Below, in pieces: positions 694 through 64,000 of a stretch of DNA of 64,000 bases. Position 1 is the first letter of the stretch, and each line of letters begins with the position of its first letter. Both the position numbers and the translations under genes were made by a program. Source of the DNA: Tachypleus tridentatus (Eukaryota; Arthropoda; Merostomata; Xiphosura; Limulidae); assembly GCF_004210375.1 (NCBI RefSeq), contig NC_134830.1, positions 48,675,094-48,739,093 of the forward strand. Reading direction: 5' to 3'. Under the pieces are notes generated by a model. That model searched no databases. It was not told the origin of the DNA and worked only from the letters and a program-made list of their open reading frames with translations.

Positions 694-8261
<7,568 letters not shown>

Positions 8262-17800: not shown

Positions 17801-20800
17801 TAAGTATTCATAAAATTTCGCTACAAAAACAAAATTGTTACCAAAGATAAAAGTATTTGTAGAAAGGCCATGAACTGTTGTGAAATCTAGCATCAAAAGG
17901 ATGAGTTTGCTCCCAAACACTAAGAAACCCACTATGGTGTCATTCTGAGCTTTTGACTAGTTACTTGTATGTTGTAAACAGAAGTAGGTGTATATAAGCA
18001 AGTCTTTCCAAAAATGGACAAAGGTAGATGGAGCCACTGTGTTTGATTAAGTAAATGTAGTGATATTCAGCAAACAGAAAAGACAGGAGGTTCTTATTTT
18101 ATACTCTGTTTGTAAAAATTGGTCATTCGAGTTTCTAGTTCATAAAAATCTACAAACTTGGTACTTGGATATCACAAACATCTAACCTGAACCAATGCTT
18201 CATTCAACATACCACATACAAAATATTGATATTTAGGAATTTTTAAAATATTTACTTTAAAATTACAAAATTAAATAGTGTATAATACTAAAATATTAAT
18301 GCTGGCTTTCATAAATACCTGAATGTTTCATGATTTTACTTACATATACTCATATTACACAACACTTTTCCAGATATACCACAACCACTGACAAGTCACA
18401 AGTGTTATGTTACAACTTTTGAAATCTTCCAACCATACAAAAACATTTTCAATGCTTAAATACATGTTCCTGTTAAGAAACCAACTGAAACAACGTCCTA
18501 CCGTTGACATAATTCTTGAATAATAACATCACAGTCTCCAAGTAGCTCCACGTCAAATGTCAAATGCTTAAGACGCTCTCGATTAATCAGAATTTGTGGA
18601 ACTTCAGGAGGTATAGAGCCTGTATAAGGTGTGTTAAGATATTTTAAAATGACAAAGATAAGAACCATACTAAAAACTGAAAATGTTTATTTATGATGAA
18701 ATAAAAAAAATATAATTAATGCAACATATCTTAAAAATAATTCATTGACAATTTATTACAATTTATTATTTGAAAGCCTATATTCTTTCTAATCGTTTTA
18801 GACAAGAAAAAAAACCAGTGTGCCAATACCAACATAAAGAACAATACAGTGTGTTATTACATGAACAAACAATGTGCCACTCGGGTGTGCTAACACTACT
18901 GTAAAAATAAAAACTCATTTCAGTGCATGTATAACACAAAAATACTTTAGTGTGCTAATACCATACCATCACACAAAAAGCTACAAGTGAGCAGATATTA
19001 ACATACAATATATAAATTCTAGTGTACTGATACCAACACAACATACCTCTGAACACCAGTACCAATTTACATGTACTTAACCCTAAGGCTACTGGCTACA
19101 AACTTGTTTAGTAAGTTATGTTACTCTTGTCATATTTCATTCTAAAAATAAAACTAGTGGATGAAATTTTGGAATTTGACAAAATCTTTCCTAAAAGTAT
19201 GTAGTTTCAGCAAAAAAAAAAAAATTATTTAATTTTAACTTTGTTCTTCCATCGATAATAAAATATTCATTTTTCAATATGGTTATCTACACTCACAAGG
19301 TGATTTTTATATGAAGTATAAAAATACTGTTATGCAATTGTAATCCAATCTAAAAAAAACTTCTGATTTAAAAATTATGCCCATAAGTGAAATCTGTAAA
19401 ATGTCTTGACAGGAACATATACATGGAAAGAAAGGAGACTGTAGTGTTTATAGATGTTGCTTATCTTTGGAATCCTGATTGAATAAAACAAATCATATTA
19501 ACTGGAAGTGAAGAAATGATGCTGAAAATGGAGATAGAATAACGTTTGTTTGTTTTTTGAATTTCACACAAAGCTACATGAGGGCTATCTGCATTAGCCA
19601 TCCCTAATTTTGTAGTGTAGGACTATAGGGAAGACAGTTAGTCATCACCACCCATTGCCAACTCTTGGGCTACTCTTTTACCAATGAATAGTGGGATTGA
19701 CCATCATATTATATTGCCCTCACGGCTGAAAGGGCTAGCATGTTTGGTGAGATGGGGATTTGAACCCGCAACCTTCAGATTATGAGTCAAATGCCTTAAC
19801 CCACCTGGCCATGCCAGGCCATATAGTAGTAAGAAGGACAAGTGACCCGAGAAATCAAAACAGAATTAGACAGAATAAAGCACGGTGCATGACATCGATT
19901 CTGGAGAAGAGGGAAATGCTGAAACCTCTAAAACCATTATTGCTATATTCAGCTGTATTGTTTTTCATACTTCACAGATTTCATTTCTGAAGAAAAAAAT
20001 CCAAGTAGTATATTTCTACCAATCAGTACTTTCTGGGACATAATATTTCAAAATTTCGCACAATGCCTATATGGGTCAGTTTTTCTTAAAGTTAATTTTT
20101 TTAAAATTAACAAATAGAAATGTTTACATACTTTTTAAATTTTCATAGAAATCCAGTTGAATATTCACACCTTTCTTATGTGCATAATTTCACATATTTA
20201 TCTTTACACTTTGGTTATTTTTCATTTTCTTTCAAAATTCTTCTGCTATCATTTTTTTGCCTACATAATAATAATTGATGAATTTAAGAAGATGTTTTTT
20301 CAGTAGACTTCCTGCAGAGATATGTTGCCAACACAAGATGGCACTTACAAACATGATCATGTTTATAAAATGTTTCAACATTCAGTTAAACTTATAAAAA
20401 TCATTAAAGCATTCATATATAATTTTTAAAACACACATAATACATAATTAACTAAAATATAAAAGTACAACCTAAATACAATTTAACCATCTCTCTAAGT
20501 ATAGCAGATATAGATAAAAAAACAAAAAAAACCATGGTACATGCCACAATCGATCAAGAAGACAACAATATGAACAGCAGTTACACGTCTGCTGTAATAA
20601 ATACTGGATGAAAGTTTCAAATAAACAACTGTTAGAGTATTGTATAAACCGAGCTCTTTCTAATAACTATATATGCTTGTGTCTACTAACTACATGTATG
20701 TTGTAGATTTTAAGGCAATACAAAGTAGGTGGGTGTGGCAACTGTCAAGGGTTGGAAAATTTATTTCTCTTTCCCAATGAATACAGTTGTATTCACCTTA

Positions 20801-23800
20801 TAAGTGTACAGAAAGGCTACAGATACTTTTCTCAAGTACAGTTATGTAGCAGACTTAGCTCAGTATTATGTTGTAATTCGAACATGGTGTTTAAACTTAA
20901 CTGAAAAAAAATGGCTGTCCTGATACAACTTGTCAGCAATATTGTATTTTGATGCCTTGAATGACATCAAGCTAAAATCAACTTACTTGGAATTAGAGCT
21001 ACTGGCCTAACTTTGAGAGAAGAGCCCATTACGATAAGTAAGTCACACTGATCCTTGTCTTTTGCCATCATCTGATGAAACTCATTTGATAGTCCTTCTC
21101 CAAAAAAAACGATGTCTGGTTTCATAATTGCTAAACCATCACCAACCTTCAGACATTTTGGACATCTTGGTATCCTCTAAAAATAGAGGTGTAATTCTTT
21201 ACTGATAAAACATTATTTTCCGTATGAAATTAATACTTACATTTTCAAAATGGACAGAACCTTCGATAATACTAACATAACATCATATCTTCAGCTCATA
21301 GCGACAACAGTTGTTACACTATGGAAGTACCTCAATTTTGACAGTCTGGAAGAAGTGATATGTGCATATTAAAAATATGAACTATGAAATAAATTGCAGC
21401 TTGTATGTGAAGATATGTATCTACTCTCAAACAAGAATCAATTTACAAATAATCAAATCTCTATTTATTCACATTAAACAAACATTATTTTACCATGATT
21501 CAAATGTATCATGTTACACTACACATCTACCACCATTCACTTAAACTTTAATCATTACACCTATTTGCTAGCATTTAATGAGAAGACCTAACACTGTCAT
21601 TTAATCAAGAGCTATTTCCAAGTAAAACATCTAAAATATAATGCTGCTACTGATAGCACTGACTATATAATGTAATACTGTTACAGATGACACTTGCTAC
21701 ATAGTATAATATTGCTACCAATGACACTATGTAACACTGCTACAAGTGGCACTTACTATATATAATACTGATACCACTGGTAGTTGCTACATAATATTAC
21801 TACCACCAGTTGTACTTATGATGTAATACAATATAATGTCGTTACCACTGTCACTTACTATACAATATAATGTAACTTATTATACAATACACTCTTGCTA
21901 CCACTGTCACTTTCTATACAATATAATGTAACTTGTTATATAACACAATGTTGCTATCACTGCCACTTACTACATAATACACTGTTGCTACACTGTCACT
22001 TACTATATATATATATAATACATTGTTGCTACCACTGTCACTTACTATATAATACACTTGCTACCACTGTCACTTACTATATATATAATACATTGTTGCT
22101 ACCACTGTCACTTACTACATAATACACTGTTGCTACCACTGTCACTTACTGTACAATATAATGTTGCTACCACTATCACATACCATACAATATAATGTTG
22201 CTACCACTGTCATTTACTGTACAATATAATGTTGTTACTACTATCACTTACTGTACAATATACTGTTGCTACCACTGTCACTTATTATACAATATAATGT
22301 AACTTATTATACAATACACTGTTGCTACCACTGTCACTTACTATACAATATAATGTATTGTTTGATTGATTTAGTGTTTTATGGCACAAAGCAGCTAGGC
22401 TATCTGCGCCAAACGTCCAGTAAAAAGGTAAAAATAAATTAAATGTAGTAAAATACAGAACAGGAAATGAAGGTAAAACAAAACATCAGTGAAAAACAGA
22501 AAAAACATAAAACCAATGTTGACACCTAGTTTACAATGTTAGGAGAGAAAGCAGAGTAAGAGAAGTTGTAAAGGACTTACTCTAGCAAAATGGAAATGAT
22601 CATATAACCTACCAGAAAAACTAACAGGTAAGTTCAAGAAACACCGTCAGTGACCTGAAGTTGGCCTTTCCAGTCCTGGTTCCAGGTTATGTGTCATAGC
22701 AGCCATTATCAAAATGTAAAAGAATAGAAGTTTTAAAAGACATATAGCAAAATCGTAATAATGAGTAGCCAAATGTCCAGTAAAAAGATAAAAGTCAAGT
22801 AAATGGAGTAAAATTTGTAAAAGTAATTGAAGATAAAAACAAAATGGCAATTAAAACAGAAAATGGTGCAAAAACAAATGTTGACATCCAGTCAACAAAG
22901 TTGTAAAGGACTTCCTGTAGCAGAATGGTAATGATCATAACCTGCCAGGAAGACTAACAGGCAAGTACCAGAACCACCATCAGTCACCTGAAGTTGGTCT
23001 TTCCAGTCCTGGTTCCGGGTTATGTGTCATTATGGCCAGTACCAAAGGGTAAAGTAATAAAAGTTTAAAAGACATGCAGCAAAATTAGAATAACAACTCG
23101 ACAGGACGACTAACGGGTAGTTCAAACGAATAGTTCAAACAGCAGCGTTAGTTACCTGAAGTTGGCCTTTCCAGTCCTGGTGTCGAATTATTTAATGTTA
23201 CGGCCATTTTTCAATGTCAAATTGAACTAGAGAGAAAGAAACTGTGAAAAGGGAACCACAATTAAAAAGGTGTAATGAATAAATATCCAACACTTAAATC
23301 AGATTAAAAAGATTAATGGCCATTAAAAAACTAAAAACTTTATCAAGGTGGACAGAGTCACCATCACCAATAACACTGTCCAATAAACAGATAAACCCTG
23401 GGAAAAAAACATGTTTAAAAATATTGCCGTCATTGAGAATCGTAACGATGGCAAGAAAGTAAAATGTGGCTGATAGTGATTTGAGTGTTACACAAACTAC
23501 ACACTGGTGCATCAGTTCCAGATAAAAAAAAAACGATGAGTTAAAAAACTGTGACCAATGTGTAGTCTAGTTAGAACAACTTCCTCCTTCCGAACCTTAC
23601 GGAAGCTAGATGGCCAAAGCCTAACATAGGGTTTTATTTGAAAAAGCTTGTTGTCGCGTTGCTACTCCAAGTGGACTGCCAGCTGGCACAGAGCCGAGCC
23701 TTGAATACAGGACCATAGTCTATGTATGGAATAGGCACAGTGGTGATAGTGCCAGAGCAGATAGATTTAGCTGCCGTGTTTGCAAGCTCATTCCCTTGAA

Positions 23801-26800
23801 TACCAACATGGCCTGGTATCCAGAAAAACGGGATAGAAGTAGCAGTTAATGAGAAATGGGCCAGTCAGTTTTGAATATCAGCGAGAACAGGGTGTGAGCC
23901 AACGTGTAGCGATTCCAGGGCCAGTATAGAACTAAGCGAGTCAGTATAAATAGTGCAGTTGGAGGACTGCTCAGCTTCAATATTATCCAGGGCAAGAGAT
24001 ATGGCATACAGTTCAGCAGTGAACACAGAAGCAGTAGAGGGGATTCTGCGTGCAACCACCGAACCACAGCAAACCATAGCAGAGCCCACTGAATTACCTG
24101 ATTTGGAACCATCTGTATAAATGGGAAAGGAATGATTGTTTAAAAGATGTTCATTAAATAAATGACGGTACTTCCAATCTGGAGTACCTGCCTTTTCAGA
24201 TCACTGAAAGAAAGGTCACATTTGGGGGCTGTAATAAGCCATGGTGGGATGAGCTGACCTGTGGAATCTGCAATGTTATTCAAGGACTGACCCAAGTCAT
24301 CCAATTAGGTCTGGATGCGAAGGCCAAACGAAGCAATGGCAGATCGTCTGTTCTGAAAAAGTACAGCCCACCGAGGAAGGAAAACACATTCTCAGGTGGG
24401 ATGCGGTGGTAAGGAACGAAGTTTTGAAGAATATAGTAAAGATAGTTGCAAACGGCGAAGGTGCAGAGAAGGTTCATGAGATTCAATGTATAAGCTTTGA
24501 ACTGGAGAGGTGTGGAAAGCCCCAGTTCAGAGTTGAAGCCCTTGGTGATGAATGGAGTCTAGCATCTTTAAGGCTGAAGGTCTGGCAGATCCACAGATCA
24601 TTGATCCATAGTCGATTCTGATCGAATAAGAGCACAATATACCTTTAACATAGAACATCAATCTGCTCCCCAACTGGTAGTAGAGAGAACACGGAGGATG
24701 TTCAGTGCTCTTGTGCATTTGACCTGCAGCTGCTTTAAGTGTGGTATAAAGGTTAGCTTACGGTCAAAGATAAGCCCCAAGAACTTGGTCTCAGGAACCA
24801 CTGGCAGCAAAACTTCACCGATATGAAGTACAGGATCAGGGTGAATTTCCCGTTGGCGGAAAAAGTGCATGCAAACGGTTTTAGAGAGAGAGACATTAAA
24901 ACCGTTCGCCATAGTCCACTTCAGTACATGATTGAGGGCAGTTTGTAGTTGCCGCTCAATATATCTCATGTTCGACAACTGACATGAGATGTGAAAGTCG
25001 TCAACATACAAATCATTTGCAATAGTGAGAGGGAGTTGTTCAGTGATGGCATTTATCTTTATACTGAAAAGTGTGACACTCAAAACACAGCCCTGAGGGA
25101 CTCCAAGTTCCTGTACAAAAGAACGGGAAAGTGTTTAACCAACACGAACTTGGAATCTCCTGTCCATTAAAAAAATTTTAATAAACATGGGTGAATGGCC
25201 ATGTAACCCATATGTATGGAGGTCTCACAAAACGCCATACCTCCATGTTGTGTCATAAGCCTTCTCAATGTCAAAGAATATTGGTACAAGATGTTGGCAT
25301 TTGAGAAAGGCTTCTCTCATTGATGTTTCAACTCGAATTAAATGGTCTGTGGTGGAGTGCTGTCGTTGGAACCCACACTGGGTGGGCGAGAGGAGGTTGT
25401 TTGATTCGAGGAACCAAACAAGACGAGCATTAACCATCCTTTCTAAGGTCTTACAGAGACAGCTCGTCAAAGCAATTGGACGGTAGTTTGAAGGAATCTT
25501 GGGATCTTTCCCTGGCTTAGAGAAAGGTAAAATAATAGCCTGGCGCCAGGCATCAGGAAAAACATTCTCCTGCCAGATCCAGTTAAAGGCAATTAGAAGG
25601 ACATCAAGAGAAGCAGGAGATAGATGGTTCAGTATGTCATGGTGTACATCATCAGGTCCAACAGATGTACTGCCAGACCGATGAAGGGCCATTTTCAGTT
25701 CCACCAGTGTAAAGGGATAATTATAGTCAAAGAGACAGTCAGTTCGAAAGGAAAGAGGTGAACGCTCTGCCCAAGTCTTGGTGGCCAAGAAGGTGGAGGA
25801 ACAAGCAGAAGTGCTAGATACCTGGCAAACGCTTTCACCTAGAGTATCAGTGATGCTCCGAACATCAGCCACCTCCTGACCATCACAGAGTAAGATCGAG
25901 AAGGGGACAGAATTGTAGTGCCCACTGACCTTTCGAATCCTGTCCCATATGACCTTGGAACTGGTGGTAGAAGATATGCTAGTTGTGAACTTAATCCAAG
26001 ATTCCTTCTGGCTTTGACTTCTTACCCACCTAGCATGTGCACAGGCCCGTTGGAAAGCGACGAAGTTCGAAAGTGTGGGATATCTATGAAAAGTATCCCA
26101 GGCCCGTTTTTGAGCCTTCTGTGCCAAGTGGCAAGCAGGATTCCAACACGGACGAGGATATCGTGGAAAATGTGTCGAGGTTTTAGGAATACACTGAGCA
26201 GCTGTTTGTATAATACAGCCAGTTACCGCTGCCACACAGTTGTCTATTGATGGCTGATTCACGATGACAGGATCAAGTTCTGCGAGAGCAGTGAAAGTGG
26301 GCCAGTCTGCCTGAACCAGCTTCCACTGGGCACGCGGGTAGGGTGGCATCAATCACACCCAGTTTCTCTCAAAAGTATAGGAAAATGATCACTGCCTAGT
26401 GGATAATTGTGTACCCTCCATGAAAAATGGGAGAATAATGAAGGGGAGCAAACTGAAAGATCAATAGCAGTAAAAAACTGACTAGGTGCATGAAAATAAG
26501 TGGAAGAACCAGTATTGAAAAGAGAAAGATTGTGATCAGAGAGCATACGCTCTACAGGGCGACCCCTCCCATTAATAACAGCACTTCCCCAGAGGGGATG
26601 ATGTCCATTAAAGTCCCCCAGGAGTAGAAAGGGAGACGGCAACTGTTCAACGAGAGCATCAAGGTCTGATTAATCATATGTCTCTCCAGGGGGACTTTAA
26701 TGGACATCATCCCCTCTGGGGAAGTGATGTTATTGATGGGAGAAAAAACAGTGATGATATGACCCAAGGAAACATGGATAGCTACGGCCTCCAAGGGTGT

Positions 26801-29800
26801 GTTGAGTGACAAAGACAGGGTGGGCACATGCTGATCAACCAATAGTGCCACCCCTCCATGTACTCATCCATCACACAGCCTGTCATTTCTGTACAGAGAA
26901 AACTGCTGAATGGTGACAGTATCAGCAGGTTTTAGAAATGTTTCTTGTAAGAAAAGACACACGGGATGGTAGGAAGCAATCAGTGTTTTGATATCATCCA
27001 GATTAGAACGTAAACCTCGACAGTTCCTTTGTATCAAGGTGGCCATTTTTAATGATGGGTAGGCGAAGTGGCTGGAGAACCCTTTTGTGTACGACCACGT
27101 CTTTTTTCCTTACTGTCCTTAGTCGGAGGAGGTCTATCAACCTCCATGGATCCTGCCCTGGGTCGATTGGGCAGGTCTTTGTTATTGGAAGGGGATTCCA
27201 GTGACTGAGGATGCGAAAGAATGATTGTTTTGCCTCTTGGGGTGGGAGAAAAAATGTATCAGAAGAAATGCCTGTATTTGAAACTGAAGGATGTGGATCT
27301 TGAGGTTTGTTGGAATGTATGGAAGGAACAGAAATGGGTGCAGAAGTCGATTCATCAACCTTTTTAACCATGGAGGTTAAAAGGCTTTTCATTTGTTTTG
27401 AAAACGATTCTCTTGGAGGCACAGAGAGATCTGTCTGCACTCCCACTGTAGTTGTGGAATGAAGTGCAGCAGCATATGTCCGAGATGGAGTGGTGGACAG
27501 CAACTTTCGAGCCTCAGGATAAGTAATGTTATGCATCATTTTCAAATGCTACACCTCTTTTCCTCCAACTATTTTGGGCAAGAACAAAAGTAGGAAGGGT
27601 AAGAACCATTGCAGTTGACACAATGTGGGTCCATGTCACATTCATAGGCATTGTGGTCCTTGCCACTGCAACGAGCACATGTCAGGGAACCACGACATGA
27701 TGTCTTTGAGTGGCCGAACCATTGAAAACATCGGAGAGGGTTTGGAATGTATGGCCGTACCCTGCAAATTAGATAACCTGCCTTGATGGTGGCAGGTGCA
27801 TGTGATGATGTAAATGTCAAAACGAGGGTATCTGTTGGCAGTGTAACTCCATCTTTGCGAGTGGAGATGCGCCTCACTGCAGAAACTCCTTGAGTGGAGA
27901 GACCAGCGAGAATCTCTGACTCGGGGACATTCTTCAAATCCCTCTCAAGAATAACTCCTCGTGATGAATTCAAGGTAGCATGAGGGGTAACCTCAATAGA
28001 TATATCCCAATTTCCGTTGAATTCAAGAGGAGTTCACTGTGGTGGGTTGAGGATGTTTCAACTAATATATCTCCAGATCGAAGCTTCTTTACTGACTTTG
28101 GAGAGCCAGCAAGACCCTCTAGTCCCTTCTGAATAAAAAAAGGGGATAATTGCCCTAAAGGTTTTTCTGAAAGAGAATGTAATATAAGAAAATGAGGTAC
28201 ATGTGTTACAGATGTCGAAGATTGCTGCTCAGTGTCTTCAAGACGTGGTCGCTTACCTATTGACTGTTTTCCCACTATTTTATTTAAATTTTTTGAAGGA
28301 GGATCCATAGGAAAAAAGAAAAATTTCGGTACCCACTGATCCCACCCACCATGGAGCCCTACAAGGGGACGCACTACAATGTCATGCAAGGACAATGCAG
28401 CAACGCCAGGGTTTCGTGAGCACTATACCCAAACACCAGCATCAGGCACAATGTCCACAACACCCGTTGAGAACTTCCAACGCTGGTACTTGGTTGACTC
28501 CAGCCCAAGTGGACCAGCCGACTGACCCAAGGGGGGCCACCCATCTACAGGAATTCAAGGCCAAAGTGGTGTGTTAGGGTTGAACCCCTCAACCACAAGG
28601 ATTCTCTCCTCCCCTTCACGGGTCACCACGCACGACAAACACGTGAGTGGATGTTTAGATCCCAGAGAAGGTAACCAGACAGAACAGAACCTTCCCTGGA
28701 AGGTCCTCTCACCATGTACAGGAATCCACACCGAGGGGCAATATAATGTAACTTGTTATATAATACAGTTGCTTTCACTGTCACTTACTATATAATACAC
28801 TGTTGCTTCCACTGTCACTTACTATATAATACACTGTGGCTACCACTGTCACTTACTATAAAATATAATGTAACTTCTTATATAATACACTGTTGCTGCC
28901 ACTGTCACTTACTATATAATACACTGTTGCTGCCACTGTCACTTACTATATAATACACTGTTGCTACCACTGTCACTTATAAAATATAATGTAACTTGTT
29001 ATATAATGCACTGTTGCTACCACTGTCACTTACTATACATACAATAAACTGTAACTTATACAATACACTGTTGCTACCACTGTCACTTAGTATACAATAT
29101 AATGTAACTTATTATACAATACACTTTTGCTACTACTGTCACTTACTATACAATATAATGTAACTTATTATACAATACACTGTTGCTACCACTGTCACTT
29201 ACTGTACAATATGATGTTGCTTCTACTGTCATTTACTATACAATATCATGTTGTTACTACTATCACTTACTATAAAATATAATGTTGCTACCTCTGTCAG
29301 TTACTGTACAATATATTGTTGCTACCACTGTCACTTATTATACAATATAATGTAACTTATTATACAATACACTGTTGCTGCCATTGTCACTTTCTATACA
29401 ATATAATGTAACTTATTATACAATACACTGTTGCTAACACTGTCACTTACTGTACAATACACTTGCTACCACTGTCACTTACTATACAATACACTTGCTA
29501 CCACTGTCACTTACTATACAATACACTTGCTACCACTGTCACTTACCATACAATACACTTGCTACCACTGTCACTTACCATACAATATAATGTAAATTAT
29601 TATACAATATAATGTTACCACTGGTAATACATACTATACAATCTATCTGGTAATCTATTTAATTACTACTAACCTGATTAAAAATGTCTTCTTTTATAAA
29701 TGTTGAATCCACGTTATACCCACACTTTGTACATGTAGCTGTAGCAAATGAACCTGTTAGAAAACCAGATGTTACACTGCATCAGACGAATGAATGAAAG

Positions 29801-32800: not shown

Positions 32801-35800
32801 TTTAAATCAGATGTTTGTGATGTCTAAATACTAAATCTATTATTTTTGTCCAAATTAGGAACTCAAATTACCAATATTGACAAGTTAGAATATGAAATAA
32901 GAACCTTGTATCTTATTTTATTTTGCTGGGATATGGCTTATGTACTTAATTAAACACAGTGACCCTGTTCACCACTTTCAATTTCTTGGTTGCTTATATA
33001 CACTTACAACAGTAAGTCATACAACAGTATATGACATATTTCAACAGCTTAAAATATCCCCAAAGTGGTTTTCTAAGCCATTTTAATCTGTGAAAAGGCT
33101 ACCACATTATTTTGATCCAAGATTTCAAGGAAGTTGTGTCTTTAGTCTGGTTGAAGTTTCATGTTTTATAAAATCTAAATGTATCTTAAGTTACTAAGCT
33201 TAATATAATAAGGGAAATTCAATGGCGTCAGTGTAGTTATTTATGATTTTTTTGGTTATTCAACTGTATATATAAAACCTAAAAAAATGTTTGTTTGATA
33301 TCTTCCATGTGCAAAATTTTCTAAGGCTTTTGATTGATTGATTTAGTGTTTTATGGCACAAAGCAGCGAGGCTATCTGCACCAAACATCCAGTAAAAATG
33401 TAAAAATAAAGTAGTAAAAGACATAAAAGGAAATGAAGGTAAAACGAAAAAGTATAAAACCAGTGTTGACACCTAGTCTACAATGTTAAGAGAGAAAGCA
33501 GAGTATAAGAAGTTGTAAGGTATTTACTCTAGCAAATTGGTAATGATCATAACCCGCCAGGAAGACTAACAGATAAGTTTAAGAACCACTGTCAGTCACC
33601 TGAAGTTGGCCTTTCCAGTCCTGGTTCCGGATGTGTCATAGCAGCCAGTATCAAAATGTAAAAGAATAGAAGTTTTAAAAGACACATAGCAAAATCGTAA
33701 TAATGAGTAGCCAAATGTCCAGTAAAAAGATAAAAGTCAAGTAAATGGAGTAAAATTTGTAAAAGTAAATGAAGGTAAAAACAAAACAGCAATTAAAACA
33801 GAAAATGGCGTAAAAACCAATGGTGACATCCAGTCAACAAGGTTGTAAAGTATTTACTCTAGCAAAATGGTAATGATCATAACCCGCCAGGAAGACTAAC
33901 AGGCAAGTACTAGAACCACCATCAGTCACCTGAAGTTGGTCTTTTCCGTCCTGGTTCCGGGTTATGTGTCATAGCAGCTATTATCAAAATGTAAAAGAAT
34001 AGAAGTTTTAAAAGACATATAGCAAAATCGTAATAATGAGTAGCCATATGTCCAGTAAAAAGATAAAAGTCAAGTAAATGGAGTAAAATTTGTAAAAGTA
34101 ATTGAAGATAAAAACAAAATGGCAATTAAAACAGAGAATGGTGCAAAAACCAATGTTGACATCCAGTCAACAAAGTTGTAAAGGACTACCTGTAGCAGAA
34201 TGGTAATGATCATAACCCGCCAGGAAGACTGACAGGTAAGTATAAAAACCACCGTCAGTCACCTGAAGTTGGTCTTTCCAGTCCTGGTTCTGGGTTATGA
34301 GTCAATATGGCCAGTACTAAAAGGTAAAGTAGTAAAAGTGTGAAATGATATGCAGCAAAAGTATAATAACAACTCTCCAGGACGACTAAAGAGTAGTTCA
34401 AACAGTAGCGTTAGTCACCTGAAGTTGGCCTTTCCAGTCCTGGTGTCGAGTTATTTAATGTTTTGGCCATTGTCCAATGTCAAATTGAATGAGAGAGATT
34501 AAAACTGTATAAAAGGAACCACAATTAAAAAGGTTTAATGAATAAATATGCAACACTTAAATGAGATTAAAAAGATTAATGGCCATTAAAAAATTAAAAA
34601 TGTTATCAAGGTGGACAGAGTCACCATCACCAATAACACTGTCCAATGTTACAGATTGACCCTGGGAAAAAATATGTTTAAAATATTGCCGTCGTTGAGA
34701 ATTGTAACGATGGCAAGAAAGTAAAACGTGGCTGATAGTGATTTGAGTGTTACACAAACTACACAATGGTGCATCAGTTCCAGATAAAAGAAAACAATGA
34801 GTTAAAAAACTGTGACCAATGCGTAGTCTAGTTAGAACAACTTCCTCCTTCCGAACCTTACGGAAGCTAGATGGCCAAAGCCTAACATAGGGTTTTATTT
34901 GAAAAAGCTTGTTGTCGCGTTGCTACTCCAAGTGGACTGCCAGCTGGCACAGAGCCGAGCCTTGAATACAGCACCATAGTCTATGTATGGAATAGGCACA
35001 GTGGTGATAGTGCCAGAGCAGATAGATTTAGCTGCCGTGTTTGCAAGCTCGTTTCCACAAATACCAACATGGCCTGGTATCCAGAAAAACTGGATTGAAG
35101 TAGCTGCTAATGAGAAATGGGCCAGTCAGTTTTGAATATCAGCGAGAACAGGGTGTGAGCCAACGTGTAGCGATTCCAGGGCCAGTATAGAACTAAGCGA
35201 ATCAGTATAAATAGTGCAGTTGGAGGACTGCTCAGCTGCAATATGATCCAGGGCAAGAGATATGACATACAGTTCAGCAGTGAACACAGAAGTTGTAGAG
35301 GGGATTCTGCACGCAACTACTGAACCACAGCAAACCATAGCAGAGCCCACTGAATTACCTGATTTGGAACCATCTGTATAAATGGGAACTGAATGAGTGT
35401 TTGAAAGATATTCATTGAATAAAAGACGGTACTTCCAATCTGGAGTATCTGCCTTTTTTAGGTGACTGAAAGAAAAGTCACTTTGGGGGCTGTAATAAGC
35501 CATGGTGGGATGGGCCGACCTATGGAATCTGCAATGTTATCCAAGGACAGACCCAATTCATCCAATTGCGCCCGGATGCGAAGGCCAAATGGAGCAATGA
35601 CAGATCGTCTGTTCTGAAAAAGTACTGCCCACCGAGGAAGGAAAACACATTCCCAGGTGGGATGTTTTGGTAAGGAACGAAGTTTCGAAGTATATTGTAA
35701 AGATAGTTGCAAACGGCGAAGGTGTAGAGAAGGTTCATGAGATTCAATGTATATGCTTTGAACTGGAGAGGTACGGAAAGCCCCAGTGCAGAGTCGAAGT

Positions 35801-38800
35801 CCTTGGTGATGAATGGGGTCCAGCATCTTTAAGGCCTAGGGTCTGGCAGAGCCATAGACCATTGATCCATAGTCGATTTACAATCGAATAAGAGCAGGAT
35901 ATACCTTTAACATTGAACATCGATCTGCTCCCCAACTGGTAGAAGAGAGGACACGGAGGATGTTCAGTGCTCTTGTTCATTTGACCCGAAGCTGCTTTAA
36001 ATGTGGTATAAAGGTCAGTTTACGATCAAAGATAAGCCCCAAGAACTTGGTCTCCGGGACCACTGGCAGCAAAACTTCACCAATATGAAGTTCAGGATCA
36101 GGGTGAATACCCCGTCGACGACAAAATTGCATGCATACGGTTTTAGAGAGAGAGAAATTAGAGCCGTGCGCCAGAGTCCACTTCCGTACACGATTGAGGG
36201 CAGTTTGTAGTTGCCGCTCAATATATCTCATGTTTGACGACTGACATGAGATGTGAAAGTCGTTGAGATACAGCCCATTCGCAACAGTGAGAGGGAGTTG
36301 TTCAGTGATGGCATTTATCTTTATACTGAAAAGTATGACACTCAATACACAGCTTTGAGGGACTCCAAATTCCTGTACAAAAGAACAGGAAAGTGTTGAA
36401 CCCACATGTACTTGGAATCTCCTGTCCATTAAAAAATTTTTAATAAACATGGGTAGATGGCCACGTAACCCATATGTATGGAGGTCTCGGAAAATGCCAT
36501 ACCTCCATGGTTGTGTCATAAGCCTTCTCAATGTCAAAGAATATTGATACAAGATGTTGGCGGTTGAGAAAGGCTTCTCTGATAGATGTTTCAAGACAAA
36601 TTAGGTGGTCTGTGGTGGAGTGCTGTCGACGGAACCCACACTGGGTGGGCGAGAGGAGATTGTTTGATTCAAGGAACCAAACAAGACGAGCATTAACCAT
36701 CCTTTCTAAGGTCTTACAGAGACAGCTCGTCAAAGCAATTGGACGGTAGTTTGAAGGAATCTTGGGATCTTTCCCTGGCTTAGAGAAAGGTAAAATAATA
36801 GCCTGGCGCCAGGCATCAGGAAAAACATTCTCCTGCCAGATCTGGTTGAAGACAATCAGAAGGACATCAAGAGAAGCAGGAGATAGATGGTGCAGCATGT
36901 CATAATGAATATCATCAGGTCCAACAGACGTACTGGCAGACCAATGAAGGGCCATTTTCAGTTCCACCAGGGTAAAGGGACAATTATAATCAAAGAAACA
37001 GTCAGTTTGAAAGGAAAGAGGTGACTGGTCTGCCCGAGTCTTGATGGCCAGGAAGGTGGAGGAAGAAGCAGAAGTGCTAGATACCCGGCAAAAGCTTTCA
37101 CCTAGAGTGTCAGCGATGCTCCAGACATCAGTCACCTCCTGACCAGAGAGTAAGATCGAGAGGGGGACAGAATTGTAGTGCCCATTAACCTTTCGAATCC
37201 TGTCCCATATGATCTTGGAACTGGTGGTAGAAGATATGCTAGTTGTGAACTTAATCCAAGATTCCTTCTGGCTTTGACGTCTTACCCACCTAGCATGTGC
37301 ACGAACCCGTTGGAAAGCAACACGGTTTGAAAGTGTGGGATATCTACGAAAAGTATCCCAGGCCTGTTTTTGAGCATTCCGTGCTAAGTTGCAAGCAGGA
37401 TTCCACCACGGACGAGGATTACGTGGAAAACGTGTCGAGGTTTTAGGAATACACTGAGCAGCTGCTTGTATAATACAGTCAGTTACCGCTGTTACACAGT
37501 CGTTTTTATAAGGCTTAGCAACCTATGTCCAGCAACAACAGAGTTCAGAGGTCACAACAAAAAGAAAACTGTGTGCTTTACTTTTTGATTGTTGTTCTAT
37601 ATTTTAAGAAAAATAAGTTTCATAACTTATTTCTAAATAGTAATAATCTGTATTGTTTTATGAGTGAAATGTGACTATATATATTACATAATGCTAGTCC
37701 ACTAAATCACAGCCAAGACAGGGTCACTTTATAAAGACTAAAGGTCAGTTTTATATCACTGGATGTGGTAACATGAGTGCACATGCACTGCATCACTGCA
37801 AGTTATGTAGTTAACTTTTAATGTACTAAAAATAATAAAATATACATGCTAATATATAACATAAGATTTATGCTACATACAGTAAAAATTTGTATTTTTG
37901 TGTTATAATATACAGTCATGAAACTAATATTTGAGATGTCTGGGATCAAGAGTAGTTTTTTAATCACAGCATGAAATAACTTTGCACTCAGACTAGTAAT
38001 GAAACAGCTATATTTTCACAAACAAACCTTTACTAAAAGTCTACCAAATTTTTTTACATGAACCTGATGGGTCCACAATAGTACTTTAGGGGGTCAGAAG
38101 CGATACATCAAACTTATGAAATTACCATATACTGAATGATTGGTTGATTTAATTGGTCTTTTATGGCACAAGGCAGCTAGGCTATCTGTGCCAAACATCC
38201 AGTGAAAAGTTAAAATTCAAGTAAAATTAGAAATTTAAGGTAAAATAAAACAAAGTTAAAAAAACAAAATGCATAAAACCAATGTTTACATCTAGTCTAC
38301 AGCAATACAAGTTGTAGAGGACTTTCTGTAGCAGAACTGTAATTATCATAACTCACCAGGAAGACTAACAGGTAAGTTCAAAGACCACTGTCATTCACCT
38401 GAAGTTGTCCTTTCCAGTCATAGTTCCGCGTTATTTGACGTTATGGTCATTTAAAAAAAAAAAGTAACAAAAGTTTTAAAAGACTTGTAGCAAAATTTTA
38501 ATAATAACTCACAAGGATGACTAACGGGTAGTTCAAACAGCAGCGTTAGTCACCTGAAGTTGGCCTTTCCAGTCCTGGTTTCGAGTTATTTGATGTTACA
38601 GCTATTTTCTGAATTTAAATTGAACTAGATGAACTGTAATTCTTAAAAAGGAATCACAGTAAAAAAGGTCCAATGTATAAATGGAAAAACTTAAATGACA
38701 TTAAAAAGATTAATGACCTTTAAAAAACTGAAAACATTTCCAAGGTGGACAGTGTCACCATCACCAATGACACTGTTCAACGTTATGGACAAACCTTGGG

Positions 38801-41800
38801 AGAAAATATGGTTAAAATGGTGCTATTCTTGAGAGTCATAACAAGGGTAAGAAAGTAAAATGTGGTTTACTGTGACCTGAGTATCACACAGACTACACAT
38901 TGGTGCATAAGTTCCAAATAAACTGCAAACTGGCATAGAGCCGAACTTTGAATACAGGACCATAGTCCATGTATGGAACAGGCACAGCAGTGATAGTCCA
39001 AGAGCAGACAGATTTACCTGAAGCATCGGCAAGCTCATACCCACGATTGCCAACATGGTCCAGTATCCAGAAAAACTGGATAAAAGTAGATATTAAAGAG
39101 AAATGAACCAGTTGGTTTTGAATATCGGCAGGAACAGGGTGTGAACAAACATGAAGTGATTCCAGGGTCAGAAGAGAACTAAGCAAGTCAGTATAGTGCA
39201 GTTTGAGTACTGCTTAGCTTCTATGTGATCCAGGGCAAGAGAAATGGCATACAGATCAACAGTGAACACTGAAGCCGTAGAGGGAATTCCGCGAGCAACC
39301 ACCAAACCATGGCAGAGCCCACATAGTATTTCCAATCAAGAGTGTCTGCTATTCTCAGATGACTTAAAGATAGGTCACATTTGAGATGGGCTGACCAGTG
39401 GATACAGCAATGTCATCCAAGGACAGACCTAATTCTTCCAACTGCACCTGGATATGAAGGCCAAAAGGAGCAAAGGCAGATCGTCTATTCTGAAAAGGTA
39501 TGGCCCATTTAGAAAGGAAAACACAATTCCAGGTGGGATGTTTTGATAAGGAAAGACGTTTTGAAGCATATAGTAAAGACAGTTGCAAATGGCAGAGGTC
39601 CAAAGAAATTTCACGAGACTCTATGTATAAGCTCTGAATTGGGGAAGTACAAAAAGACCCAGTGCAGAGCAGACGTCTTTGATGATGAATGGAATCCAGC
39701 ATCTTTAAGGCCAAACTCCTGGCAGAGACATAAACCAGCGATCCATAGTTAAGTTTCGAAGGAATAAGAGCATGATATATCTTTAGACCTTTGTCTCAGT
39801 GACCACAGGCAGCACAACCTTGCCAATATAGAGTTCAGGATCACGGTGAGTATCTTGTTGGTGGCAAAAGTGCATGCAAACGGTTTTAGAGAGACAGAAG
39901 TTACAGCCGTGTGCTGTGATTTACTTCAATAAATGTTTGAAGGCAGTCTGTAGCTACCGCTCAATATACATTATGTTTGATGGCTGACAGGAGGTGTGAA
40001 AGTCATCGACATAGAGCCCATTTGCAAAAGAAACAGGGAGTTGTTCAATGATGGCATTAATCTTTATTCTGAAAAGTGTGAGACTCAAAATACAGCCCTG
40101 AAGGACTCCAAGTTCCTCTAGAATAGAACGGGAAAGTTTCAAACCCACACAAACTTGGACTCTCCAGTCCATTAAAAAATAATAAAAATGGGCAAATGGC
40201 CACATAACCCATGTATATGGAGGTCTCACAAAATGCCATACCTTCATGTTGTATCATTTGCCTTCTCAATGTCAAAAAATACTGATACAAAATGTTATTT
40301 GAGAAAGGTTTCTCTGATGGACATTTTAAATCAATCAGGTGGTTAACATTGAAGCGCTGTCATCGGAACCCACACTGGGTGGATGAGAGGAAGTTGTTTC
40401 ATTCAAGGAACCAAATGAGATGAGCATTAACCATCCTCTCTAAAGTCTTACAGACACAGCTCGTCAAAGCAATTGGACAGTAGTTTGAAGGAATCTTGGT
40501 ATCCTACCCAGGCTTAGAGAAAGGTAGGGTGACAGCCTAGCACCAGGCATCAAGAAAAACATTCTCCTGTTAGATCCGGTTAAAAACAAGCAGAAGAATA
40601 AAAGAGAAGAAGTAGATAGATGGCACAGCATTTCATAATATACATCATCAGGTCCAACCAATAAAGGGCCAGTTTGAATTTCACCAGTGTAAAGAGACAA
40701 TTATAGTCATAGATACAATCAAATCAAAAGGACAGAGGTGTTTGCTCTGCCTGATTCTTGATGGCTAAAAAGGTGGAGGAAGAAGCAGAAGTGCTGATAC
40801 CCAGCAAAAGCTTTCACCTAAAGTATCAACGATGCTCTGGGTATCAGCTACTTCCTGGCCATCAGAGACCAAGATCGAGAGGAGGATGGAATTATACTGC
40901 CCACTGACCTTTCGAACTAGTGGTAAAATATATGCTGATTGTGAATTTAATCCAAGACTCCTTCTGGCTTTGACGTATTACCCACCGAGCATGTGCATGG
41001 GCCTGCTGGAAAACAATGTGGTGTGAGAGTGTGGGATACCTATGAAAAGTATCCTAGGTCTCTTTTTAAGCCTTCCATGCCATGTGACAAGCAGGATTCC
41101 ACCACGGACTAGGATATCATGGAAAAACATGTTGAGATTTTAAGAATACATTGAGCAGCTGCTTGTATAATAGAGTCAGTTACTGCTGTCACACAGTCTT
41201 CTATCAATGGCTTACAGACATTTGCAGGATCAAGTTCTGTGAGAGCATTGAAAGAGGGCCAGTTTGCTTGATCCAGTTTCCACCTGGGCACGTAGGTCAT
41301 GTGGCATCGACCAGGGCCAATCTCTCTCAAAATTATAGGAAAATGATCACTGCCTCCTGGATTATTGTCAACCCTTCAAAAAAAGTGGAAGAAATGTGAA
41401 GGAGAGCCAACTGAGAAGTCAGTAGCAGTAAAGGACTGACTAGGTGCATGGAAATAAGTGGACGAACCAGTACTGAAAAGAGAAAGGTTGTGATCAGAGT
41501 CATACGCTCTATACAGTGACCTCTCGTATCAATATCAGCAGTTACCCAGAAGGGATGACATCCATTAAAGTCCTCCAGGATTAAAAAGAGAAATAGCAAC
41601 TGTTCAACAAAAGCATCAAGGTCTGATTGATCATGTCTCTCCAGGCAACAGGTAGAGAGAACAAACAATGATGGTATGACCCAAGGAAATGCGGATGGCT
41701 TCGGCTTCCAAGGGTGTATTGAGTGGCAAAGTAGGGTGGGCACATGCTGATCAACCAACAGTGCCACCCCTCCATGCACTTGTCCATCACACAGCCTGTC

Positions 41801-44800
41801 ATTTTTGTACAAAGAAAGCCACTGCAAGGTGACTGTATCAGCAGGTTTCAGAAATGTTTCCTGTAAGGAAAGAAAAACAGGACGGTAGGAAGCAATCAGT
41901 GTTTTGATTTCATCCAGATTAGAACGTAAACCTTGAGAGTTCCATTGTATCAATATAGCCATTTTAATTTATGTGTAGGCAAATTGGGTGGAGAATCCTT
42001 CTGTTTATGACCACATCTTTTTTCTTTAATGTCCTTATTCGAGGGAGGTGTATCGAACTTCATGGATCCTGCTCTACGTTGACTGGGCAGGTCTTTGCTG
42101 TTGGAAGAGGATTTCGGCAACTGAGGATGTGAATTAATAATTGTTTTGCATGGTGAGGTAGGAGAAGAGAATGTATCCAAAGAAATGCGTGTACCCAAAA
42201 CCAGAGAAAGGGGATCTTGGGATTTGTTGGAATGTATGAAAGGGACAGAGATGAGTGTTGAAGTTGATTCATCAACCTTTTTAACCATGGAAGCCAAAAG
42301 ACTTTTCATTTCTTTTGAGAATGATTCTTTTGGAGGCATAGTGAGATTCATCTGCACTCCCACTGTAGTTGTGAAACAAAGTGCAGCAGCATATGTCCAA
42401 GATGAAGTGGTGGATAGCAACTTACGAGCTTCAGGATAAGTAATGTTATGAATTGTTTTCAAACCTTGCACCTTTTTTTCTTCCAAACATTTAGGGCAAG
42501 AACAAAAGTAGTACAGGTGAGAGCCATTGCAATTGACACAATGAGGGTCCATTTCACACTTGTAGGCATCATGGTCCTTGCCACTGCAACATACATACGT
42601 CAAGGAACCACAAAACAACATCTTTGAGTGACCAAACTGCTGATACTGGAAACATCTGAGAGGGTTTGGAATGTATGGCTGTAATCTGCAATTAAGATAA
42701 CCTGCCTTGATGGTGGCAGGTAGACATGGTGATGTAAATGTCAGAATGAGAACATTCGTCAGCATTATAATTCCATCTTTGCAAGTGGAGATACACCTCA
42801 CTGCAGAAACTCCTTGGGTGGAGAAACCAGTGAGAATCTCCAACTTGGGGATGTTGTTCAAATTCCTCTCAACAATATCTCCTCATGACGAATTCAAAGT
42901 AGCCTGAGGTGTAACTGCAATAGGTGTATCCCCAATTGCCTTTGAATGCAAAAGGAGTTCACTGTCTTGAGATGTGGATGTTTCCACCAATATGTCACCA
43001 GATTGAAGCTTCTTTACTGACTCTGGAAAGCCAGCAAGTCCCTCTAGTCCCTTCTGAATGAAAAAGGGAGGCATTTGACCTAAAGGTTTGTCTGAAAGTT
43101 AATGCAATATAAGAAACTGAGGTACAACAGATGGTAAGGATTGCTGCTCAGAATCTTCAAGACATGGTCATTTACCTATAGAGTGATTTTCACTATTTTA
43201 TTATGCTTTTTAATTGGAGTATCCAAAATGAAAAAGAAAATTTCGGTGCCCACTGACCCACCCACCACGGAGCCCCACAAGGGCTGCACTACAATGTCAA
43301 ACAAGGACATTGCAGCATCGCCAGGGTTTTGTGAGCACTATACCTAAACACCAGCAGCAGATACAATGTCTACAACACATGTTGAGAACATCCAACACTG
43401 GTACTTGGTTGCCCTACCCCAAGTGGACCAGCCGATTGACTCAAGGGGGGCTACCCCAAGGCTGCCCGTCTACAGGAATTCAAGGCCAAAGTGATGTGTA
43501 AGGGTTTGACCCCTGAACCACCATGATCCTCTCCTCCCCTTCACGGGTCGCCACGCATGGCAAACACATGGGTGGATGTTTAGATCCCAGAGGAGGTAAA
43601 CTGGAAGAACAGAACCTTTCCTGAGGATCCCCTCACCACATACAGGAATCCACACTGAGAGGATACTGAAAAAGTAACGAATAAAATAAAATGGTACAAC
43701 AGTATAAAACTAGTATGGTAAAATATATACAAGTCCCAAATTAATAACTGTAATTAACATAAATTGATACTTAATAATATCAATATTATTGATATTAATA
43801 TGCATATTAATATAACTTTAATATTAACTTTAATATGCATATCAGCCATTTTGAGGTACACTGACAAACATTATATTAAAATATATAAAAAATTATTATC
43901 TATTAACAAATGTAACGAGTAACATAACTATTATCAGGCAAACAGATTATATTAAAAATATATTAATATGATTTGAATAGTTTGTGTGCTCATGGGGAAT
44001 GTGAGATATAATGAATAGAGAAGAAATATTAATCTTGTGACGTAACCAGTCCTAACATAATAGTATTTTGATGTCTACCTTCAATTGGTCAGAGAAACTG
44101 TACCGAATATAGGTAGTCCCTCTCAAACATTACTGGAACTATGTTATAATGTTGCTATTCATTAAACAATTTTTCTCTTCCTCTTTATTTTAAATACCGA
44201 CCTTTGCAAACTTGAAAAAAGGTCTGGGGTCCTTTCTGAAGTAATGGATGTCAAACATTGCTTGGGGGTCAGGAAGTTCAGGAAAATCTTTACTAAGTCG
44301 AGCGTAAATACCGTTTCTGGACCTAAAATCTGGTATCCCACATGACACTGACACCTACAGAAAAATCATGGATTAATAAGATGTTATAGCATAACAGTAC
44401 ACAGGGAGAAATGTGTCATGAGTAATACATATTTCATTATCAAGATGTATGTCACGACTTGTACGTATTTTATCATCAACATGTGTGTCACGATTAATAC
44501 GTATTTTATCATCAAGATGTATGTCACAACAAATACGTATTGTATCATCAAGATGTATGTCATGACTAATACATATTTTATCATCAAGATGTATGCCACG
44601 ACTAATACATTTTGTCATAAAGACGAATGTCATGACTTGTACATTTTATCAAGATGTATGTCATGACTAATACATAGTTTTTATGTTTATAGGTCAGTAA
44701 TATCACACATCAAGTAAGAATATCAAAATATGTATTAGTCATGATATTCACTTTATGTTTAAGAGGATAATGTTACATGTACTGTTGAGATTGTTGTTGA

Positions 44801-47800
44801 ATTTCATCAGCACTGTTCAACATTAATTGAATATTAAATGTGTGTAATCCATGGTTACAGTAAAAATAAATTATTTTTTAGTTAACTTCTGACACGTTAG
44901 TTTTCTAAAACAATAAGTATTGTTCCTCACTTCTTGCAACTGTCTTATTTATTGAATCACAGAATGCATAAAAATTTATATTTTTAAAAGAAACAAATCT
45001 CTTGCAACCTTCTGATATGTACTTCACAAAAGTAAAATGTGAAATGTAATTTTAATATGTCATAAAACCTTTCTTAATTCTTTATTTTCTAAACTAAAGT
45101 TTTTTAAAATTCTCAACTTTGTAAACTTGTTTCTAGTATTTATTTAGAATGTAAGAACATTCATTTGGTTTGGAAGCCTATACTGCTAAACATGATTGGT
45201 CAGTTTATAAACAAGCATAAGTATTAATATTTTTGAGAAAAAACTAAAAATTTAGATTACGCATTTAATTTATAGGTACCAAAAAAAAAAAGTGTAACTT
45301 ATAAAATTTCCTCTCTATGAAACCAGAATAAGAAAACTGGACTTACTCCAGCTCCAGTAAGTATCATTATATTTTGAGAAGTTTGAATAAGGTTGACCAC
45401 ATCATCCAGGGTGTTAATGTGGGGTAGTTTGGTACGACGAGGGGGTTCATTCAGAACACTGACAATTATCTTCCACAAGGTAAGAGGATCTAAATGGGAT
45501 GAAATAAATGAGGTCTGTGGAAAGAGCTCTTCCAGGATGGTGCGAGGATCAATTCCTTGAATGATCTGCTGTTGAACCCAAGTAACTGGTCCTAGTGAAG
45601 GGCAGGATACACAATATGGTATACTAGTTACTTCAACAATTAAAACATATAAATCTCCATATCTAGAAGTTCTTCTTAATAGGTAAAGAAAATATAATCA
45701 AAACCCTTCCACTAAATGAAAAATATTTCCAAAAATATATCAGGTAAAACATTCAGTTGAACACAGTAACTGGCACTCAAATTATTGCAAAAGTGTTTTC
45801 AATCAAAAAGTTCCTTAAAAATAAACTAAATTATTAAAACATACTTATTACATTAAGTAACTATATTATCTTTAACTGATTACTTATTATTTGTCTAGAT
45901 AATAATGTCTTAACATTAATTTTTTGTATTTTTTAAAATTTTATTGCAAAAAACATCAATTTTTATCATTTCTTGCTCAACCTACAACAAGACCACCAGT
46001 TATGTCCACCACGTCAAAACTGACATCATCATATCAACACATTTCAAAATAACCAAAAAGAATATGTGAAAATTAATGTAGGTTTTGATATTAAATAGAA
46101 TCAAAAGTGTAAATTGTATTACAGAGAGGGGGTAGGAAATGATGTAGAAAACAATACTACAGAGGAGTGTTGGAAACTAATGTGAATTTTATAATATAGA
46201 GAAATCAGTTTGAAATGAAAAAAATGAACTTCTTATTTGTTTTTTCCAGCACTACAGCTTGATAGAATCAAGAGAATATCAAATGTAATAATAGGTACTT
46301 ATACAAAATGTCCAAATACAATTTCAGCTTATTTAATATCATCAGATTTCTGGAGGAATCTAGTTGGTTAGTTGGTTGATTTAGTGTTTTATGGCACAAA
46401 GCAGCTAGGCTATCTGTGCCAAACATCCGTTAAAAAGCTAAAATTAAATTTAATAAATTTCATAAAAGGAAATTAAGGTAAAACAAAACATAAATAGCAT
46501 GAAACTAATGTTCACATCTCGTTACAGCAGTAAGAGAAAAACTACAGTAATTCAAGTTGTAAAGGATTTTCTCTAGCATAATTGTAATTATCATAACTTG
46601 CCAGGAAGACAAACAGGTAAGTACAAAAATCACTGTCAGTCACCTGAAGTTGGCTTTTCCAGTCCTGGTTCCAAGTTATTTGACATTATGGCCATTTTCA
46701 AAAAGTAAAGCAATAAAAGTTTTAAAAGACTTGTGGTAAAAGTTTAATAATAACTCACCCGGATGACTAATGGGTAGTTCAAACATCTGCATCAGTCACC
46801 TTAAGTTGGCCTTTCCAGTTCTGGTTTCGAGTTATTTAATGTCGTGGCAATTTTCTAATTTCAAATTAAACTAGATAGACTGCAATTCTTAAAAAGGAAT
46901 CACAGTAAAAAAGATCCAATGTATAAATTGAAAAACTTAAATGACATTAATAAGATTAATGGCCTTTAAAAAACTAAAAACATTTCCAAGGTGAACAGTG
47001 TCACCATTACCAAAATTGTCTGATATTATGGACAAACCATGGGACAGAACATGTTTAAAATCATGCCGTCATTGAGAGTCATAACAACGGCAAGAAAGTA
47101 AAATGTGGCTTATTGTGATCTGAATGTTACACAGACTACACATTGGTGCATTAGTTCCAGATGAAAAAAAATGAGTTAAAAAAATGTAACCAATCCATAG
47201 TCTAGTTAAAACTTCCTCTTTCTGATCCTTATGAAAGCAAGATGTCCAAAGTCCAATATGGGGTTTTATTTGGAAAAGCTTGTTTTCATGTTGCTCACTC
47301 CAAGTTGACTGCAAGCTGGCATGAAGCTGAGCCTTGAATACAGGACTATAATCATATATGGAACAGGTACAGCTGTGATAGCATCAAAGCAGATAGATTT
47401 TGCTGCAACATCTGCGAGTTCATTCCCAGAAATACCAACGTGGCCCGGTATCCAGAAAAACTGGATAGAAGTAGATGTTAACGAGAAATAGGCCAGTCGG
47501 TTTTGAACATCAGCAAGAACATGGTGTGAACTAACATGAAGCGATTCCAGGGCCAGTATAGAACTAAGTGAGACAGTATAAATAATGCAGTTTGAGTACC
47601 GTTTAACTTCTATGTGATCGAGGGCAAGAGAAATGGCGTACAGTTCCGCAGTGAACACAAAAGCTGTAGAGGGGATTCTGCACGCAACCACCAAACCACA
47701 ACAAACCATGGCAGAGCCCACACAGTCACCTGATTTTGAACCATCTGTATAAATAGGAATGGAAGGATGGTTCAAAAGATGTTCAGCAAATAACAGACAG

Positions 47801-63542: not shown

Positions 63543-63811
63543 CCCCGACATGGCTTAATAGTTAGGGCGTTTTACTTGCAATTTGAGGGTCGCGAGTTCG
63601 AATCCCCGTCATACCAAACATACTCGCCCTTTCAGCCATGGAAACGTTATAAAGTTTCGACCAATCCCACTTTTCGTTAGTAAAAGAGAAGTCCAAGAGT
63701 TAGCGGTGGATGGTGATGACTAGTTGCCTATCTTCTAGTTCTACACTGCTAAATTATGGAGGGCTACTGCACATAGTCCTCGTGTAGCTTTGCGCGAAAT
63801 TAAACAAACAA
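63543..63811 (+). mobile_element. SINE copy G, variant head
   Basis: Full-length copy on the + strand, with imperfect 13-bp duplications AGCTACAAACTAA (63530-63542) and AGCTACTAACTAA (63812-63824). The body matches the family, but the head differs: TGGCTTAATAGTTAGGGCGT and an anticodon-loop position reading CTTGCAA (TGC) instead of CTCGTAA (CGT). The B box, GAGTTCGAATCCC, is close to consensus. Confidence 0.85.
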
Positions 63812-64000
63812 AGCTACTAACTAAAATTTAAAAAAAAAATTCAAGGTCGTTCTGCAGGCCGCCATGCCGCGGCTAAAAATATTTTAGCATTTATTACACC
63901 TTCAGTTAACAAATGTTTTTCAGTTTTCGTTACTACACTGAGATTTTATACTTAGAGTTATAAATTATTTAAATCAAATAATGAGACTAGCTGTCACTCT

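Follow-up and report, generated by a model that had tools for sequence, protein, structure and literature searches.

A 3'-terminal hairpin shared by LINE-type tails and two SINE families with tRNA-like heads in Tachypleus tridentatus suggests a SINE/LINE partner lineage in horseshoe crabs

LINE and SINE copies in the window

The window, i.e., the whole 64,000-nucleotide stretch analyzed here (C6:48675094-48739093), lies in the 2.17-Gb genome of the horseshoe crab T. tridentatus and carries four copies (c1 to c4) of a single LINE family, all on the minus strand, with copies of a SINE family, designated SINE-A, around them (Table 1). In keeping with a horseshoe crab genome, coagulin (PF02035), a clotting protein of these animals, is matched in pieces of exon size at C11:9.017-9.022 Mb, over model positions 1-70 and 75-174; none of 14 control genomes gave such a match, a control of little weight because at least three of them are prokaryotes. 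Endonuclease (PF03372), reverse transcriptase (PF00078) and RNase H (PF00075) domains were found in the LINE family, each from a different broken copy, and from this domain make-up the family probably belongs to the I group.

Table 1. Positions of LINE and SINE-A features in the window
Feature	Position	Strand	Remarks
Hairpin core in the 3' tail of LINE c1	22383..22410	-	
LINE c1, 6381 bp	22358..28738	-	Exact 12-bp duplication, 22346-22357 and 28739-28750
LINE c2, 5'-truncated	33330..37503	-	8-bp duplication AAGCCTTA, by eye, ~5 nt off BLAST edge
LINE c3	38140..43662	-	8-bp duplication TTCAGTAT, by eye; endonuclease ORF 41333-41962
LINE c4	46372..52591	-	Imperfect duplication only, by eye; RNase H ORF 47266-47937
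SINE-A	19550..19824	-	Tail 19550-19600; tRNA-like head at high coordinates
SINE-A	55482..55739	-	
SINE-A	5286..5554	+	10-bp duplication, one mismatch
SINE-A	6135..6394	+	12-bp duplication, one mismatch
SINE-A	63544..63812	+	12-bp duplication, one mismatch
Tail-only SINE-A insertion, 48 bp	56103..56150	-	Exact 11-bp duplications, 56092-56102 and 56151-56161

An array of a ~34-bp tandem repeat is found on both sides of LINE c1 (window positions 21679-22357 and 28739-29650), suggesting that this copy was inserted into the array; since the 12-bp duplication at c1 sits inside the tandem repeat, it is less telling. Repeats of ~330 bp were also seen within the LINE 3' untranslated region (22604-23188 and 33510-34463), apparently in unequal number in c1 and c2. 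Around the SINE-A copy at 19550, stretches between 17000 and 21200 have, by eye, the look of host-gene exons, and the gene may encode a sirtuin.

The initial annotation of this window had reported that both families leave duplications of 8-13 bp, and such duplications were indeed recovered at c1, c2 and c3 (all by eye, with an imperfect duplication only at c4) and, at 10-13 bp, around SINE-A. When one mismatch was allowed, SINE-A duplications of 10-13 bp were scored in 14 of 34 near-full copies, compared to 1.4% of swapped-flank controls; 16 of these 34 copies had no flank match of at least 7 bp. The 48-bp tail-only insertion is what one would expect of copying that starts in the tail and is soon broken off.

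Similarity of the LINE and SINE tails

The same annotation had proposed that the LINE and the SINE share a 3' tail, with roughly 22 of 30 bases aligned, and this proposal was confirmed. The strings that it quoted are present at the stated positions and align over 30 columns with 21 identities, 2 mismatches and 7 gap positions, so its count was fair. Both elements also end in tetranucleotide runs, as it had described, but the runs differ: the LINE has AATC, the SINE AAAC. Alignment of the last 60 bp gave 45 identities, 11 mismatches and 6 gap positions from end to end, and the LINE/SINE tail alignment stops 2 nt short of the LINE end.

The score of 27 obtained for the LINE family tail against SINE-A was reached in 3 of 5000 SINE-masked genomic windows, drawn from 20 evenly chosen 3-kb pieces, and in none of 1000 dinucleotide shuffles. 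Outside the 3' end, there is no comparable likeness: the body of the SINE scored 22 and 23 against the two strands of the whole LINE, compared to 30 for the tail. Thirty PF00078 loci (L039-L068) from the same genome fell into three groups at 80% identity, presumably Jockey-like LINEs, with ends (12 of 30 inspected) that were A-rich, TG-rich or made of GTTTA repeats; the one tail tested per group scored 9-14, which is background, and with no tail similarity these LINEs were rejected as partners of the SINE. The presence on SINE-A of a tail of this LINE kind is well supported: the homology is anchored at the element ends, is absent from the three other LINE groups tested and covers a segment predicted to fold as a hairpin in which two pairs are changed on both sides.

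Fold and covariation of the shared hairpin

The core common to these tails, ~28 nt in length, is a hairpin of the form GCRCAGATAGC(C)-loop-GCTTTGYGC. An additional closing pair is G-C in the LINE-type tails and A-U in a second SINE family, SINE-B (see below), and SINE-A is without this outer pair, carrying A and G at the respective places. The predicted folds of four LINE forms had z-scores of -2.3 to -3.0, and in two of these forms the predicted inner helix is longer and the loop has 3 nt; the two SINE hairpin forms fold only slightly better than their shuffles (z of about -1.2). The loop is 8 or 9 nt long in the SINEs, compared to 5 nt in LINE-type tails, and both SINEs end in AATTC(C)-AAAC, whereas the LINE-type tails seen carry AATC, ACCA or ACCT.

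In a family-level alignment of 11 sequences, 97 of 99 cells were standard pairs, and two pairs were changed on both sides. Of 500 shuffles, 1 reached the true percentage paired, 1 the covariation score, 15 the count of two-sided pair changes and 478 the count of pair types. With the partners shifted by -3, the covariation score was as high as the true one (0.166 compared to 0.160), yet just 48.5% of cells then pair. Of the two covarying pairs, one falls within CpG sites, where decay can produce part of the same signal; among the first 100 of 2439 genomic matches to LINE-type hairpins, this pair was G-U in 50, A-U in 38, G-C in 11 and A.C in 1 (Fisher p = 0.026, or 0.044 on 29 distinct 28-mers, with copies that are not independent). 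The covariation is supportive of the hairpin rather than proof of it.

Other LINE-type tails and a second SINE family

Exact LINE-type tails were found at 3277 places genome-wide, and the reversed pattern was found at none. The hairpin was present in all 20 fetched copies of the window LINE family (with one changed base in L099), as is expected because these copies were chosen by a search with that end. Six further tails (L109-L114), picked from match lists for their different-looking loops, have the same core with other flanks and other terminal runs (ACCT, ACCA and AATC-like). Judged by their ends, these six tails probably also belong to LINEs. One of them, L114, resembles an insertion of the tail alone, with a duplication of 8 bp read by eye, and the L112 family is old, with 75-90% identity apart from L112 itself (40 scored of 56 candidates).

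SINE-B, of which L023:788-911 is an example, is a second tRNA-like SINE family with the same kind of hairpin at its end. ARAGORN folded positions 1-75 of SINE-A and 1-74 of SINE-B as tRNAs at a relaxed threshold only (typed consensuses); at the default setting it reported 0 tRNA genes in the window and none in the SINE consensuses. The sequence GTTCGAATC, a putative pol III box, is present in SINE-A, and a B-box pattern search found none in SINE-B. A near-identical mobile repeat, found on C9, C12 and C19 (L014-L019, L029 and L035-L037), combines a SINE-A tail with adjacent tandem repeats of the SINE body.

Abundance and age of the SINEs

In a 60-kb genomic sample of 20 pieces of 3 kb (L069-L088), SINE-A made up 8.7% of the sequence (bootstrap 5.3-12.0%; present in 12 of 20 pieces) and SINE-B 1.1% (0.4-2.0%; 8 of 20 pieces); in the window, SINE-A accounts for 2.7%. 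The exact SINE-A flank and tail core are kept at 68,701 places genome-wide, and the reversed pattern at 0. A common short element that ends in the hairpin of long elements suggests spread by borrowing of their copying machinery. Relative to their majority consensus, 38 copies of SINE-A had identities of 79.6-92.3% (median 86.5%, in a sample partly selected by likeness to one copy), and tail copies of the window LINE family were 97-99% identical over ~74 nt (as the best matches of many), which fits a SINE expansion older than the latest activity of the LINE.

By contrast, according to the available text of Nong et al. 2021 (PMC7815833), little of the repeat content of two horseshoe crabs consists of SINEs and LTR elements. 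For T. tridentatus, the available part of another report (PMC7011531) gives 13.26% transposable elements, composed of LINEs (6.21%), LTR elements (1.72%) and DNA elements (5.33%) with nothing left over, and the word SINE is absent from the main text of a third (PMC7210998). The published surveys may have left SINE-A and SINE-B among the unclassified repeats, and the present data suggest that horseshoe crab repeat annotations missed one of the commonest repeats as a SINE.

Candidate partners of the SINEs

The window LINE family is not the best match to either SINE. Against SINE-A, the tails scored 39 (L112), 37 (L111), 32 (L110 and L114), 30 (L109), 28 (L113) and 27 (window family); against SINE-B, they scored 38 (L109 and L110), 36 (L111), 30 (L112) and 21 (window family, L113 and L114). 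By comparison, the SINE-A and SINE-B tails scored 55 against each other (typed consensuses). The earlier suggestion that the I-like LINE of the window is the partner of the SINE consequently stands for the kind of LINE but not for this very family, as better tails exist; a much better match in another LINE family, which the annotation had named as grounds for abandoning its proposal, was found in part, in L112 for SINE-A and in L109-L111 for SINE-B.

Three exact-pattern searches of the genome did not reveal a LINE family with a SINE-type loop among the matches listed, with patterns that a family differing in the fixed letters would escape. The search for a 9-nt loop, whose flank filter would also exclude a flank like that of the window LINE, gave 236 matches; among the 100 listed, 66 had the flank CAG, as in SINE-B, and 92 agreed with it at 2 or more of 3 places. 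The closed stem of LINE-type tails was found with loops of 6-14 nt in 22 matches, compared to 2439 with a 5-nt loop, and 14 of the 22 have, by reading, SINE-type loops; these could derive from copies of the SINE whose closing bases have changed, or be something rarer. The SINE-A loop with a non-SINE flank gave 216 matches, and the 78 listed with letters had 52 distinct flanking 4-mers, compared to 50.8 (sd 3.2) for AT-biased random flanks. Since this diversity is that of random flanks, these matches look like tails cut at the hairpin, and their interpretation as a LINE family was rejected. A truncation hot spot at the hairpin base is not claimed, given 216 such matches against 68,701 intact cores.

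In zebrafish L2 LINEs, retrotransposition was lost when the stem-loop was deleted or swapped, and the loop is the part that the LINE protein reads most specifically, according to the available text of PMC4176376. If I-group proteins act like ZfL2, the window LINE would be a poor driver of the SINE, because its loop differs from the SINE loop; another LINE of this lineage, whether a sibling or now lost, is therefore preferred. Such a member, with a SINE-matching loop and AAAC run, would be the likelier driver, and the window LINE would be part of the partner lineage but probably not the direct driver.

Interpretation of the shared tail

Taken together, the shared tail quite probably serves an I-group-like LINE lineage as its 3'-terminal recognition hairpin and is carried by two SINE families with tRNA-like heads, with the window LINE a member of this lineage and probably not the direct driver. 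Under this explanation, transcription of the SINE would proceed from its tRNA-like head, a protein encoded by a LINE of the lineage would bind the hairpin and nick the target, and copying would start at the short terminal repeat, i.e., target-primed reverse transcription with mobilization in trans; the outcome would be duplications of ~8-13 bp and 5'-truncated copies, down to tail-only insertions. The sequence shows the homology and its confinement to the 3' end, along with the duplications, the tail-only insertion and a predicted fold, and this anatomy fits target-primed reverse transcription by a tail-reading LINE.

The reading of the initial annotation, in which the young LINE family of the window itself drives SINE-A directly and loop and terminal repeat are irrelevant, is unlikely. 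While the tail match is significant, the tail copies of this family are near-identical and the duplications left by LINE and SINE are of similar length, its tail is the weakest of seven LINE-type tails for SINE-A (27 compared to 28-39) and ties for the weakest for SINE-B; moreover, its loop length and terminal repeat are unlike those of the SINE, and the SINE-A copies look older (in the partly selected sample). Still less probable is a driver from a quite different LINE clade, with the hairpin likeness brought about by tail exchange between clades; in its favor, the two SINE tails are closer to each other than to any LINE tail found, but the three Jockey-like groups have unrelated ends and the matches with non-SINE flanks resemble random genomic flanks rather than a family. 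Chance, or an artefact of A-rich ends, is very improbable as the source of the likeness; even though the common core is just ~28 nt and a few genomic windows reach the score, no shuffle does, the alignment spans to both element ends and the core is repeated in several LINE-type tails and two SINEs.

In addition to the lineage-level explanation preferred here, one small hairpin could act as a replication handle common to several LINE families, whose 3' ends are otherwise different, and no fewer than two SINE families, all of which would retain it despite turnover of their loops, terminal repeats and upstream sequence. The longer loop of the SINEs may indicate that more than one LINE recognizes them, as generalist parasites. 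This broader scenario is speculative and rather doubtful; if true, recognition by more than one LINE would help explain the presence of SINE-A at about a tenth of the genome without a LINE of identical tail.

Comparison with known SINE/LINE pairs

No publication on horseshoe crab SINEs was found in a literature search with partial journal coverage, and a text search of the literature for the 12-mer GCGCAGATAGCC gave 7 papers, none of them on SINEs as judged by titles and the beginnings of abstracts. Sharing of tails between SINEs and LINEs is itself known, and the horseshoe crab pair is a new case that points to a specific partner lineage of LINEs in these animals, probably within the I group. 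The table of SINE/LINE pairs in PMC3747384 (its Table 1, in the available text) includes a single protostome SINE, Gecko of Aedes aegypti, whose listed partners are I-clade LINEs (I-74_AAe, MosquI and others). Gecko is a tRNA-headed SINE with the 3' tail of these LINEs; the horseshoe crab SINE resembles it in its tRNA-like head and in a LINE tail that is probably of the I group, but occurs in another animal, and the likeness is one of description. Among arthropods, the HaSE1 SINE and the HaRTE1.1 LINE of Helicoverpa armigera likewise have their 3'-terminal 43 bp in common at 82% identity, but HaRTE1.1 differs in being an RTE-type LINE with TGA repeats (PMC3272025, available text).

The proposed recognition of the hairpin is similar to that of ZfL2-1 and ZfL2-2 in zebrafish (PMC4176376, available text) and of UnaSINE and UnaL2 in eel (PMC3747384, available text), where the LINE protein recognizes a stem-loop in the 3' tail. 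Unlike these systems, which belong to the L2 clade, the horseshoe crab SINE and LINE have different loops and are described here from sequence; such natural variants, in which the stem is kept while the loop and the terminal repeat vary, could be used to test whether LINE proteins read the stem, the loop or the repeat. A further parallel is found in maize ZmSINE2 and ZmSINE3 with LINE1-1_ZM, a pair that differs in its plant L1 clade and in the poly(T) ends of its SINEs, but in which, as in the horseshoe crab, a 3' hairpin of a LINE group is kept, with compensatory changes, while the rest diverges, and is common to the SINEs (PMC3747384, available text).
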